From assembly GCF_000014005.1 (NCBI RefSeq), contig NC_008009.1, positions 1,178,001 to 1,242,000 on the forward strand: 64,000 nucleotides of DNA, read 5' to 3'. Position 1 is the first letter of the stretch. Each line of letters starts with the position of its first letter. Shown piece by piece: positions 26,559-49,017 of the stretch. A program made the position numbers and the translations under genes. The DNA is from Candidatus Koribacter versatilis Ellin345. Lineage in GTDB: Bacteria; Acidobacteriota; Terriglobia; Terriglobales; Acidobacteriaceae. Under the pieces are notes generated by a model. The model was not told the origin of the DNA and made no database searches. It saw only the letters and a list, made by a program, of their open reading frames with translations.

Positions 26559-27461
26559 TCAGTGGAAGTGATATTCGAACGTGGCCTGCTTCGCGAAGTT
26601 GTCGTAGAAAAGCACATAGCCGCTGCGGTTGTAGTCGTCGATCATGAACAGGAGCTGCGAGTGGCCAGATTTGTCATAGTCTCCCGCGTCCACGAGGACG
26701 AGGTTGCCTCGCAAGAATTGAGTTTCACCGTTTGGATCAATGGTGAACCACTGATCGGCGAACGGATCGTTCGATGGATCGTCAACAATGCCGTCACAGC
26801 GGTAGGCGCTTAGGTGTACCGCCGCGAGTTTCCACGTTGTGCTGGCCCCATACGACTTTCCGAAGTGAAAGTCGGCGTCTGCGTAATGCCAATTTTTACG
26901 GGGAGCGGATTCATTGTCGCAGTTCTGGACAGAGGCGAAGTGCTTACTGAACTGAGTCCGAATGGCTGCCCTCTCATTTTCGGAGATATGGGCAGGCTTC
27001 CAGTTATCCGGGGCCTGAAAATTCGATCGGGAAACAGCAACAAGCGGACGCAAGATTGGGTCGCCAAGAAATCCGGCAAACTCTTCTGTCGGCTTGCCGA
27101 TCACCGGCACTTTCGCCGAAGGCAGGATCACCTGTTCCCCGACTCTCCAATAGCTTGACCACTCTGCCGGAGTGCGCGCACTGACCTCGCCCATCTTGCG
27201 GCCGTCAAATGCAATCGTCCAGTGGACCGCTTGCGGATACCTTGCCGGCAATTTGTGCAAGCACTCCTCATTTTCACAGTCCGTCGGGAAGGCCTTCCAG
27301 TCGTCGCCTTCGTGGAAGAAGAGAGCTCTAGCGGCTCGATGGTGCATATCGTTCGCGGATTCAGAAGGGACGTCTTCGAGAACTCCGAGCAGGAGCGGTT
27401 GGGTCTGCCCGAACAGGCCAACCGCGCAGAGTAGTAACAATCCAAGACAGATCGACTTCAT
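26559..27461 (-). CDS. Secreted protein of unknown function, tandem paralogue A
   Basis: This 300-residue protein begins with a signal peptide (LGLLLLCAVGLFG). It is clearly related to the next upstream gene: both share PLLLGVLED/PVVLGVFED near the N-terminus, a TEEFAGF segment, and a C-terminal core LVDAGDYDKSGHSQ, LFMIDDYNR, GYVLFYDNF and KQAT-EYHFH. The DYDKSGHSQ stretch, with regularly spaced acidic residues and a Gly, looks like a calcium-binding loop of VCBS type. Four or more cysteines suggest disulfides outside the cytoplasm. I do not recognise a named family. It follows its paralogue after 21 bases, so they are co-transcribed. Confidence 0.8.
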   Translation of the reverse strand: MKSICLGLLLLCAVGLFGQTQPLLLGVLEDVPSESANDMHHRAARALFFHEGDDWKAFPTDCENEECLHKLPARYPQAVHWTIAFDGRKMGEVSARTPAEWSSYWRVGEQVILPSAKVPVIGKPTEEFAGFLGDPILRPLVAVSRSNFQAPDNWKPAHISENERAAIRTQFSKHFASVQNCDNESAPRKNWHYADADFHFGKSYGASTTWKLAAVHLSAYRCDGIVDDPSNDPFADQWFTIDPNGETQFLRGNLVLVDAGDYDKSGHSQLLFMIDDYNRSGYVLFYDNFAKQATFEYHFH

Positions 27462-27482
27462 ATGTCTGCCGTTCTCGTCGGC

Positions 27483-28358
27483 TCAGTGGAAATGGTATTC
27501 GAGCGTCGCCTGCTTCTGGAAGTTGTCGTAGAAGAGCACGTAGCCGCCGCGATTGTAATCGTCGATCATGAAGAGGACTTGCGAGTGGCCAGATTTGTCA
27601 TAGTCTCCCGCGTCCACGAGGACGAGGTTGCTCGCGAGGTAATGGACGGTGCCGGAGGGATCGATCGTGAACCACTCGTAGTCCAGCCCGGCGGTGGCTC
27701 CGAGGTTGCTGGCATCGCAACCTTTAATTCCGAGCGAGAACAATTTCCACCCGGTCTTTGCGGCGTAGCTTTTGTTGACCTTGATTTCGGCGTCGCGGTA
27801 TTCGCGGCTTTCTTCCACTTCGCAGTTAGTGATGCGCGGATATTTTTTGCGGAACTCGGCGCGGACCGGAGCGACGTTGGCTGGCACTGCGATGAACGGC
27901 TTCCAAACGTCGGGATCGGCGGAGTTGGGTTGTGAAATTGCAACCAGTGGACGTAATACGGGTGCTCCCGGAAATCCCGCGAATTCCTCCGTTTGTTTGC
28001 CGATCGCCGGAAGAGGAGGCTCACTGATGATTTGCATCATTGCGCGCCAATCGGAGTCCGGAGGGTCGGGGGCTACGCGCGACGTGATGGTCCCAAGACT
28101 GCGCCCATCGAAAGCTAGCGTCCATGTCAGTTCGAAGGGAAATTCCGGAATGAATTGCTGCATGCACTTCCGCGTGGCGCAGTTGGCCGGCAGAACTTTC
28201 CATTCGGTCCCAGACTTGTAAAACACCGCGCGGAGACCGCGAATGTGCGGATCTTGCTCGAGCGCTCCCATGCTGTCTTCGAACACGCCGAGAACTACCG
28301 GCGACTGGGCGAACAACGCCGTCGAGAACAACAGCGCGCATAGGATCCGGCGAAGCAT
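27483..28358 (-). CDS. Secreted protein of unknown function, tandem paralogue B
   Basis: This 291-residue protein has a signal peptide (RRILCALLFSTALFAQ) and the same layout as the neighbouring paralogue. It has PVVLGVFEDS after the signal, a CATRKCMQQF cysteine pair, LTWTLAFDGRSLG, and the highly conserved C-terminal block LVLVDAGDYDKSGHSQ and FMIDDYNRGGYVLFYDNF. At DNA level the last 150 bases of the two genes are much more alike than the rest, so the duplication is either selected strongly there or refreshed by gene conversion. It is the first gene of the pair. Its function is unknown. Confidence 0.8.
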   Translation of the reverse strand: MLRRILCALLFSTALFAQSPVVLGVFEDSMGALEQDPHIRGLRAVFYKSGTEWKVLPANCATRKCMQQFIPEFPFELTWTLAFDGRSLGTITSRVAPDPPDSDWRAMMQIISEPPLPAIGKQTEEFAGFPGAPVLRPLVAISQPNSADPDVWKPFIAVPANVAPVRAEFRKKYPRITNCEVEESREYRDAEIKVNKSYAAKTGWKLFSLGIKGCDASNLGATAGLDYEWFTIDPSGTVHYLASNLVLVDAGDYDKSGHSQVLFMIDDYNRGGYVLFYDNFQKQATLEYHFH

Positions 28359-46983: not shown

Positions 46984-47106
46984 AAGTTGGATTAGGTGGA
47001 GGAACTGGCCTACGCTATGATGCGCCACCTTGGTCGCAGACTGGGCTAATTGCTGGGAATTTGCCAGGACTCTATACTTGTCCACTGGTCGAGGCGGGAG
47101 TGCCGA

Positions 47107-47955
47107 ATGGGAAAACAGACGGAGTCGGTTTGGATACCCGAGGTGCGGCCCACGGATACCGCTGTGGTGCACGAATCTGCCATGTTCCGTGTTCTGAGCG
47201 CAATGCTGGAACGGGGGACGATCGGCCGTGACCACTCATTGCTAGTCGTCTTCGGCGGAGAGTTTGATCGCGCCGTCATCGCCGAATTGGCTTTCACGAA
47301 TGTCTCCCTGTCGAACATATCGAATGCCGTGGGCGACTTGCACTTCGACGCCAGGGCATTTCCATTCCCGGACAACTCCTTTGACCACGTCATAGCGCAT
47401 GCCGGTCTCCATCATTGTTCACGACCGCATCAGGCGGTTTGTGAAATGTATCGGGTCTCGAAGAAATCAGTCATCTTTTTCGAATCGCAAGACTCATGGA
47501 TGATGCGTCTTGCGATTCGCATGGGAATGACGGTTGACTATGAGTGGAATGCAATTCTCGACCACCGTCTCCAGCGCGGCGGCGTCGACGACCTGCCCGT
47601 GCCGAACTACGTCTACCGCTGGACTCGCAGAGAAGTTGAAAAGCTCGTTCGGTCGCTCGACCCCGGTCACGTCCCTCACCTGAACTTCACCGTGCAATGG
47701 GACTTCACCTACAAAAGGGTGATGCGGAGATTGCAGCGCACCCCGCTCCGGTTCTTTCCCTCATGGCTCCTGAGTGGCTCATGTAGGGCCGTACTCGCAA
47801 CCTTTAACCTGTTGTTTTCCAGTTATGGCAATGTATTCGCGGTGCGGATTGAGAGGTCGCAGACCGAGCAGCCGTGGATGAAGGACGGGGTATTTGTGCC
47901 ACCATTCCAAGTACAATCCAGCGAAGCCGGATCCTGTGAGCACGAGGTCAGCTAA
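47107..47955 (+). CDS. SAM-dependent methyltransferase, type 11-like
   Basis: I start at the ATG at 47107, with GGGAG upstream. The 282-residue protein has an atypical motif I (LLVVFGGEFDRAV) followed by the usual DARAFPFPDNSFDHVIAHAGLHHC, which is the acidic and post-motif II region of type 11 methyltransferases, then a basic C-terminal half. A substrate cannot be named. It is not close to a sugar or lipid cluster. Its 3' end lies just before the convergent tRNA-Sec. Confidence 0.75.
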   Translation: MGKQTESVWIPEVRPTDTAVVHESAMFRVLSAMLERGTIGRDHSLLVVFGGEFDRAVIAELAFTNVSLSNISNAVGDLHFDARAFPFPDNSFDHVIAHAGLHHCSRPHQAVCEMYRVSKKSVIFFESQDSWMMRLAIRMGMTVDYEWNAILDHRLQRGGVDDLPVPNYVYRWTRREVEKLVRSLDPGHVPHLNFTVQWDFTYKRVMRRLQRTPLRFFPSWLLSGSCRAVLATFNLLFSSYGNVFAVRIERSQTEQPWMKDGVFVPPFQVQSSEAGSCEHEVS

Positions 47956-47972
47956 GCGCTGTTAAGAGCCCT

Positions 47973-48071
47973 TGGCGGAAGCGTGTGCGAGTCGAACACA
48001 CCCTCGACAGGACGAGCCTGCCGAACACCGGTTTTGAAGACCGGGGCGGTCACCGGACCACTTTCGCTTCC
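47973..48071 (-). tRNA. selC: Selenocysteine tRNA (anticodon UCA)
   Basis: The minus strand gives a 99-base tRNA including an encoded CCA. The acceptor strands are GGAAGCG and CGCTTCC. A six-base-pair D stem GTGGTC/GACCGC closes a four-base loop, which is unusual and characteristic of tRNA-Sec. The anticodon arm CCGGT-CTTCAAA-ACCGG carries UCA, read as UGA. A long variable arm CGGCAGG/CCTGTCG is present. The T arm is GTGTG/CGCAC with a TTCGACT loop. No selA, selB or selD and no obvious selenoprotein gene is in the window. Confidence 0.9.
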
Positions 48072-48079
48072 GTATCCCG

Positions 48080-48107
48080 ATTCTAGCAGTCACCCGTTTT
48101 TCACCAA
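48080..48107 (-). promoter_or_regulatory. Likely promoter of selC
   Basis: On the minus strand TTGGTG and TAGAAT (revcomp of 48102-48107 and 48080-48085) are separated by 16 bases. The -10 box ends eight bases before the first base of the tRNA. The region also serves as the leader of the plus-strand PhzF gene. Confidence 0.6.
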
Positions 48108-48126
48108 CTCCGGTATCCTTGTGCCC

Positions 48127-49017
48127 ATGACCGCCCGCACCTTCGCCTACCAGCAACTCGACGTCTTCACCAACCAGCCGCTTCAGGGCAATATGCTCGC
48201 CGTCTTTACGGACGCCCGCGGCCTCTCCGACGCCGAGATGCAGGCCATTGCGAAGGAAACCAATCTCTCCGAGACAACGTTCATTCTGCCCCGCGACGCC
48301 GAGACCGAAGCCCGCGAAGGTGTGAAGGTCCGAATCTTCACGGTGGAGGAAGAACTCCAGTTCGCCGGTCATCCCACGCTCGGCACCGCATATTTGCTGC
48401 ACCAGAGCGACGACAGCGACCAGGTCACCCTCGATCTTAAAGTCGGCAAGATCCCCGTCACCTTCACCCGCGACGCCCAGGGCCTGGCCTTCGGCGAAAT
48501 GCGCCAGCGCGACCCCGAATTCGGACAGGTCCACGACGACGCCGTTGCCATCGCACGCATTGCCGGCATTCGCCTCGACGACATCGACGCATCTCTCCCG
48601 ATCCAGACCGTCTCCACCGGAATGCCTTTCGTCATCGTGCCAATCCGCACTCTCGCGGCACTTCGCAACCTGCGCTTCAACTGGCAGGCGGCGTCCGACT
48701 ATCTCGCCAAGACTGACGGCAAGTTCTTCTATTTCGTCTCGGAAGAAACCGAGCAGAAAACCTCGTCGCTCCACGCCCGCATGATCTTCTACAACGGCGA
48801 AGATCCGGCTACGGGTTCGGCTGCGGGCTGTTGTGCAGCGTGGGCGGTGCAACATGGCGTGGTTGCGTCAGACGCGCAGGCGATCATCGAGCAGGGAATC
48901 GAGATGAAGCGAGCGAGCTACATTCATTTCCGCGCGACGAAGCGTAACGAATCGGTCAGCAATGTCCGCGTAGGTGGTCACTGTGTGAAGGTGTCGGACG
49001 CGACCTTGTCGTTTTAG
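48127..49017 (+). CDS. PhzF-family isomerase
   Basis: I start at the ATG at 48127; a longer frame runs through the tRNA-Sec. The 296-residue protein has the PhzF-type double-barrel pattern: YQQLDVFTNQPLQGNMLAVF, KETNLSETTFIL with the conserved Glu, VRIFTVEEELQFAGHPTLGTAYLL, and DPATGSAAGCCAAW. Members catalyse epimerase or isomerase reactions in which a Glu acts as base. The family is very broad and only one member makes phenazines, so the name should not be read as a phenazine role. No biosynthetic neighbours exist. Confidence 0.92.
   Translation: MTARTFAYQQLDVFTNQPLQGNMLAVFTDARGLSDAEMQAIAKETNLSETTFILPRDAETEAREGVKVRIFTVEEELQFAGHPTLGTAYLLHQSDDSDQVTLDLKVGKIPVTFTRDAQGLAFGEMRQRDPEFGQVHDDAVAIARIAGIRLDDIDASLPIQTVSTGMPFVIVPIRTLAALRNLRFNWQAASDYLAKTDGKFFYFVSEETEQKTSSLHARMIFYNGEDPATGSAAGCCAAWAVQHGVVASDAQAIIEQGIEMKRASYIHFRATKRNESVSNVRVGGHCVKVSDATLSF

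Follow-up and report, generated by a model that had tools for sequence, protein, structure and literature searches.

The stretch analyzed here, hereafter the window, comprises 64,000 nucleotides of the Candidatus Koribacter versatilis Ellin345 genome (contig NC_008009.1, forward-strand positions 1,178,001 to 1,242,000). On its minus strand it carries a gene for selenocysteine tRNA (tRNA-Sec) whose eighth acceptor pair is mismatched, a feature that proved common among the tRNA-Sec of the Acidobacteriota. The parts of the gene, its neighbors, and the formate dehydrogenase genes discussed below are as follows.

47973..48071, minus strand: tRNA-Sec gene (selC) with a UCA anticodon, G73 and CCA being encoded at 47976-47973 (ARAGORN; RF01852, 66.4 bits)
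48064..48071, minus strand: 5' strand of the acceptor stem, GGAAGCGA, with its eighth base, A at 48064, opposite A at 47984
47977..47984, minus strand: acceptor segment with A at 47984, the mismatched partner at pair 8
47985..48001, minus strand: T arm of five pairs, beginning with G-C at helix pair 9 (E. coli numbering, 49-65)
48046..48061, minus strand: D arm with a 6-bp stem, GUGGUC/GACCGC, and a 4-base loop (sequence and RF01852)
48035..48037, minus strand: UCA anticodon (ARAGORN)
48002..48026, minus strand: long variable arm (RF01852 alignment and the helix of alignment A2, described below)
47050..47955, plus strand: methyltransferase-domain protein (PF08241), downstream neighbor, outside the selenocysteine system
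48127..49017, plus strand: PhzF-like protein (PF02567), divergent upstream neighbor, outside the selenocysteine system
Genome positions 541965-544979, 1082157-1085375, and 2712700-2715729, outside the window: formate dehydrogenase alpha genes (fdhA), one in-frame TGA each

An initial annotation, made by a model from the sequence, had proposed a tRNA-Sec between two plus-strand genes. ARAGORN called tRNA-SeC(tca) at exactly the same coordinates on the minus strand, the sole tRNA of the window, and the bacterial tRNA-Sec family RF01852 gave a full-length match from 48071 to 47977 (66.4 bits, E = 2.5e-11; gathering cutoff, 47), the single gathering-level match in the window among the 4227 Rfam families scanned. 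The acceptor, the D stem, the anticodon, and the variable arm had been said to fit tRNA-Sec. This holds for the D stem, the UCA anticodon, and the long variable arm but not entirely for the acceptor stem, which has seven Watson-Crick pairs and A.A at pair 8. A promoter-like pair had also been reported, and we did not recover it: a sigma-70 consensus scan of 47700-48300 gave 0 sites (0.2 expected from shuffles), other promoter types being outside the scan. Failure of the covariance models and absence of all synthesis genes had been named as grounds for abandoning the call; RF01852 matched, and selA, selB, and selD were found in the genome. We rejected a pseudogene or a prediction artifact on the RF01852 score, the presence of these three genes, and the conservation of tRNA-Sec in relatives. 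Judged from its sequence, this is a genuine tRNA-Sec gene, selC, in a bacterium whose selenocysteine system is complete.

The genome (5,650,368 bases, one contig) contains selA (E = 3.5e-168), selB (E = 1.3e-107), and selD (E = 1.9e-108). One in-frame TGA interrupts selD, as in each of the three fdhA genes, and these four genes, together with selA and selB, bear out the proposal of the initial annotation that the organism decodes some UGA codons as selenocysteine (Sec). The absence of selA, selB, and selenoprotein genes from the window, also noted there, is consistent with the places of the genes found, all outside 1178001-1242000; selenoprotein genes were sought in two families, selD and fdhA. 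The four sel genes are not linked to one another (selC at 1.23 Mb, selA at 5.36, selB at 5.48, and selD at 0.10). The Sec codon stands in the context AAGUASKLSP in SelD and QAR(V/L/I)UH in all three FdhA. Folding alone, with neither shuffle control nor SECIS model, predicted hairpins 3' of the fdhA TGA with the loop GGUCU in L144, GGUC with the U paired in L143, and GGUCU in one of the three stretches folded for L140; the hairpin predicted after the selD TGA lacked a GGUCU loop. The fdhA hairpins may resemble the selenocysteine insertion sequence (SECIS) of E. coli fdhF. In this tRNA family, seryl-tRNA synthetase (SerRS) loads tRNA-Sec with serine, SelA converts Ser-tRNA-Sec to the selenocysteine form with selenophosphate supplied by SelD, and SelB brings Sec-tRNA to SECIS-marked UGA codons. 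In this genome, Sec-tRNA would be directed to the UGA codons of the three fdhA genes and, provided that a SECIS exists there, of selD. Acidobacteria were already listed as selenoprotein users (PMC1794560), and the gene by itself adds no more than confirmation of a trait known for this organism. A tRNA-Sec gene accompanied by a Sec system is no surprise in Koribacter; what was not expected is the state of acceptor pair 8.

The window tRNA-Sec shares with that of E. coli K-12 (annotated selC), which is of the RF01852 type, the UCA anticodon, the 6-bp D stem with a 4-base loop, the long variable arm, G73, eight residues per acceptor strand, and a 5-bp T stem. By residue count (8 + 5 per strand), its acceptor/T helix has 13 layers. 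The canonical E. coli 8/5 form has eight standard acceptor pairs and C7-G66 with G49.U65; the window tRNA-Sec has neither, since layers 8 and 9 are C-G and G.U in E. coli but A.A and G-C here. According to the excerpt of PMC9976931, C7-G66, G49.U65, and C50-G64 of E. coli tRNA-Sec have a role in the discrimination between SelB and EF-Tu, and that of PMC6267555 equates the EF-Tu antideterminants with the final pair of the acceptor stem plus pairs one and two of the T stem. These three pairs, layers 8 to 10 of the helix, make up the E. coli SelB/anti-EF-Tu element. The window tRNA-Sec resembles this element in that the same helix layers are concerned and one non-Watson-Crick pair occurs among layers 8 and 9. 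They differ in the irregular pair, which is the G.U of layer 9 in E. coli and the mismatch of layer 8 in the window, and in layer 10, C50-G64 versus U-A.

In order to follow pair 8 among named records, we searched with a pattern based on tRNA-Sec of the family to which the window gene belongs, leaving pair 8 free. Every title among the best 80 of the 96 stretches found was from an Acidobacteriota group. One of the 80, L111, was cut by a contig end and left out, giving 79 complete tRNA-Sec (64 distinct sequences). Pair 8 was mismatched in 75 of the 79 (C.U in 43, C.A in 19, and A.A in 13) and formed in four: L068, L112, L119 (Edaphobacter), and L123 (Granulicella). The other seven acceptor pairs and the five T-stem pairs were formed, as standard pairs or G.U, in 79/79.

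We then considered 41 genomes, namely, that of Koribacter and 40 relatives. As the raw tally of matches (41/41) includes tRNA-Ser and other tRNAs, the gap between 64.6 bits and the next score listed, 58.1, served as a divider, and strong tRNA-Sec are those with at least 64.6 bits. A strong tRNA-Sec occurred in 27 of the 41 genomes and selA in 33, all 27 being selA positive. Among these 27, the Koribacter one included, pair 8 was mismatched in 15/16 members of family f1, 4/9 of f2, 0/1 of f3, and 1/1 of f4. Alignment A2 (26 rows) omits L010 (paired at 8; misaligned in alignment A1), L019, and L020 and includes L112 and L119. In it, pair 8 is broken in 18 rows, the remaining acceptor, T-stem, and all D-stem pairs hold in 26/26, and two anticodon-stem and two variable-arm pairs are broken in 1 to 6 rows.

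For the phylum as a whole, a tRNA-Sec model built here, R1, matched 236 of 396 Acidobacteriota genomes at an E value of ≤1e-9; R1 was trained on mostly mismatch-bearing tRNAs and may favor the mismatch. Searches over more than 40 genomes were run with stricter filters. We read 169 of the 236 matched genomes (6 already in the set, 26 with loci given by the search, 88 fetched, and 49 genus-distinct genomes from the rest), which with the 27 strong tRNA-Sec gave 191 tRNAs, two of them from G371. L309, whose 5' end was misplaced by the parser, was excluded, leaving 190. Three members of family f73 (L240, L244, and L247) show an apparent single bulged base in the 5' strand of the T stem, and their T stems were reread with the bulge. 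Family labels were transferred by hand, and the named-record and phylum sets overlap in organisms. Pair 8 was mismatched in 133 of the 190 tRNA-Sec, which span 75 families. The mismatches were C.A in 49, A.G in 41, A.A in 24, C.U in 9, A.C in 5, U.C in 3, and G.G in 2. Neither the literature listings searched nor the excerpts of PMC7609411, PMC5330540, PMC4607533, PMC1794560, PMC9976931, PMC6267555, PMC5311926, and PMC8124441 mention Acidobacteriota tRNA-Sec mismatched at pair 8, and novelty is provisional.

Two sets served as controls. In 14 tRNA-Ser (from the Koribacter genome, 12 genomes of the same order, and 1 of the same class), there was no acceptor or T-stem mismatch, and the second T pair was G.U. 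Outside the phylum, we assembled 12 tRNA-Sec, that of E. coli and those of 11 of the 12 selA-bearing records of a plasmid collection, no tRNA-Sec being found in the twelfth. Pair 8 was a mismatch in 5, A-U in 6, and C-G in 1; pair 9 was G.U in 3. A mismatch was also present at pair 4 in two of these tRNA-Sec and at pair 6 in one, and G-C or C-G at both layers occurred in 0/12. Thus, the pair-8 mismatch is not peculiar to Acidobacteriota, as 5 of the 12 outside tRNA-Sec carry one. A pattern scan of the viral_contigs collection for further outside tRNA-Sec was discarded (35 stretches, 32 unparsable and the 3 parsed implausible as tRNAs), and a blastn search of E. coli genomes with the tRNA-Sec of a relative gave no match.

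The states of layers 8 and 9 were associated. Among the 190 tRNA-Sec, 125 combined a mismatch at 8 with a Watson-Crick pair at 9 and 39 a Watson-Crick pair at 8 with G.U at 9; both layers were Watson-Crick in 18, and a mismatch at 8 stood next to G.U at 9 in 8 tRNA-Sec. Hence, G.U at layer 9 occurred in 39/57 tRNA-Sec with pair 8 formed versus 8/133 with pair 8 mismatched, and exactly one non-Watson-Crick pair was present among the two layers in 164/190. When one random member was drawn per family, this last state reached a mean of 61.2/75 versus 41.5 after shuffling. G-C or C-G at both layers was seen in 7 tRNA-Sec, where 35 were expected from single-layer frequencies; 2 of these 7 are mismatched nearby, L281 at pair 7 and L184 at pair 10, and the other 11 doubly Watson-Crick tRNA-Sec have A-U at one layer. 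Fisher's test gave a P value of 4e-17 on the 191 raw rows and 7e-6 on family-collapsed data, deeper kinship being uncorrected in both. Contrasts on a rough tree derived from the tRNA itself gave 11 for the association, 2 contrary, and 7 ties (P = 0.022).

We also tallied the dinucleotide opposite layers 8 and 9 (positions 65-66). With C8 G9 on the 5' side, it was CA in 49, UG in 36, CU in 8, CG (fully paired) in 2, and UA in 0. A single transition converts either CA or UG into CG or into UA, so that the two common states are separated by two rare ones. With A8 G9 on the 5' side, it was CA in 24, CG in 12, UG in 6, CC in 4, CU in 1, and UC in 1; in this background the doubly weak state is present (7/48).

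We tentatively favor the explanation, held at somewhat less than an even chance, that the layer 8 mismatch could be an alternative form of the E. coli SelB/anti-EF-Tu element. We propose it from sequence statistics and because the mismatch sits where the discrimination between SelB and EF-Tu acts and tends to exclude the G.U of E. coli. Selection would maintain in bacterial tRNA-Sec, at layers 8 and 9, a step that is weak or distorted. In E. coli, C7-G66 with G49.U65 would provide this step, favoring SelB and repelling EF-Tu; in most of the Acidobacteriota lineages read, a mismatch at layer 8 with a Watson-Crick pair at layer 9 would meet the same need, a minority would use the E. coli form (8 paired, 9 G.U), and a few would have an A-U pair. 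A more specific version is rather doubtful: a single imperfect step might exist in two mostly exclusive, exchangeable forms (8 mismatched and 9 firm, or 8 firm and 9 G.U) that direct Sec-tRNA to SelB rather than to EF-Tu, with evolution moving from one form to the other and bypassing the fully paired and doubly weak states. If this were true, the E. coli 8/5 structure would be one of two solutions, and Sec-tRNA would be told from ordinary tRNAs by an imperfection at a fixed place and no fixed set of bases. Gene finders that expect eight pairs in tRNA-Sec could then benefit, as could efforts to engineer tRNA-Sec for EF-Tu or SelB.

Several observations weigh against this explanation. The layer 8/9 counts share ancestry. 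The exclusivity is a tendency and no law, because 18 of the 190 tRNA-Sec are Watson-Crick at both layers and 8 at neither. Outside the phylum, exactly one non-Watson-Crick pair was found in 6/12, none in 5/12, and two in 1/12. Moreover, six families are mixed at pair 8, and of their 12 members paired there, only 2 have G.U at layer 9 and 10 have a Watson-Crick pair. Most of these 10 (7) have A-U at layer 8 or 9, 1 has a pair-7 mismatch, and 2 are fully G-C. As only 2 of the 12 have the G.U, recent switches occurred mostly without the E. coli form, and they appear to go to an A-U pair more often than to that form. Kinship, bias in model selection, or other partners (SerRS, RNase P, or SelA) may also underlie the layer 8/9 pattern.

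Relaxed constraint at the acceptor/T junction, such that helix length alone matters and layer 8 drifts freely, is a serious possibility, which we consider slightly less probable than the proposed alternative element. It agrees with the many mismatch types at pair 8 among the 133, with the mismatches beyond the phylum (5/12), and with layer 9 being Watson-Crick in most paired forms of the mixed families (10/12). However, drift leaves unexplained the distribution of G.U at layer 9 (39/57 versus 8/133), the rarity of strong pairs at layers 8 and 9 together (7 versus 35 expected), and the scarcity of CG (2) next to CA (49) and UG (36), although common descent might explain some of this pattern. 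It is unlikely that the weak step serves another partner, namely, charging by SerRS (which prefers 12-bp acceptor domains), cutting by RNase P, or bending by SelA. A junction mismatch or wobble would soften the extra layer of the 13-layer helix, and the same layer 8/9 statistics are compatible with such a role, but the function published for these pairs, in the excerpts of PMC9976931 and PMC6267555, is SelB/EF-Tu discrimination; the results here fit either reading. Finally, it is most improbable that the window tRNA-Sec belongs to the 12-bp (7/5) type described in excerpts of PMC4607533 and PMC5330540 for Epsilonproteobacteria, the Cloacimonetes type, and others: seven acceptor and five T-stem pairs do form, so that, as in that type, its acceptor/T helix contains no more than 12 pairs, Watson-Crick or wobble, but the PMC5330540 class has seven residues between the T stem and G73 where the window tRNA-Sec has eight, the eighth facing a nonpartner, and relatives with the same eight residues reach full 8/5 pairing.

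Six of the 41 genomes (G001, G002, G008, G032, G036, and G037) have selA without a strong tRNA-Sec. Their assemblies are 73 to 93% complete, and missing assembly sequence may suffice to explain the absence. When the 14 genomes without a strong tRNA-Sec were searched again, the best hit (45.1 bits) was a partial gene in G001 and the others scored ≤39.8; the first three hits, which we inspected, were this fragment, a tRNA-Ser, and a tRNA-Leu. In G001, which belongs to the same genus, selA is split between two contigs, with one piece at an end of each. The fragment (L385/L395; contig C94, 401-470) is a 70-base block 93% identical to window positions 47973-48042; it corresponds to the 3' half of tRNA-Sec, from the anticodon stem to CCA, but not the 5' half. 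Possible origins are an att remnant left by integration, a truncated copy, or a chimeric assembly. No integrase was recognized by eye among the open reading frames (ORFs) of at least 150 amino acids in the first 7 kb, with no family search and with the contig starting 400 bases upstream. Separately, tRNA-Sec-like genes with long variable arms were present in G001 (L347), G023 (L348 and L350), and G012 (L349). ARAGORN assigned the anticodons GCG to L347 and L348 and UAU to L349 and called none for L350; L347 is 8/4 when folded by hand. These four genes resemble allo-tRNAs reported from Acidobacteria in the excerpt of PMC7609411.

The initial annotation had further cautioned that TGA-ending frames of the window might be incomplete. 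Among 46 greedily picked window ORFs with 120 codons or more, TGA is the stop codon of 10; an in-frame extension of at least 25 codons follows it in 4, and we saw no truncation in the 10. Inspection by eye of the 4 extended ORFs revealed no protein continuation past the TGA, without a homology search of the extensions and with shorter genes not covered, and a simple scan of the ORFs of at least 120 codons yielded no selenoprotein candidate. The use of window TGA codons for selenocysteine was therefore unsupported by the ORF extension scan. At 26559-28358 on the minus strand lie two tandem paralogous genes, both TGA-ending, which share a near-identical C terminus, YVLFYDNF..QAT.EYHFH; the extension of the first gene continues in frame into the second.
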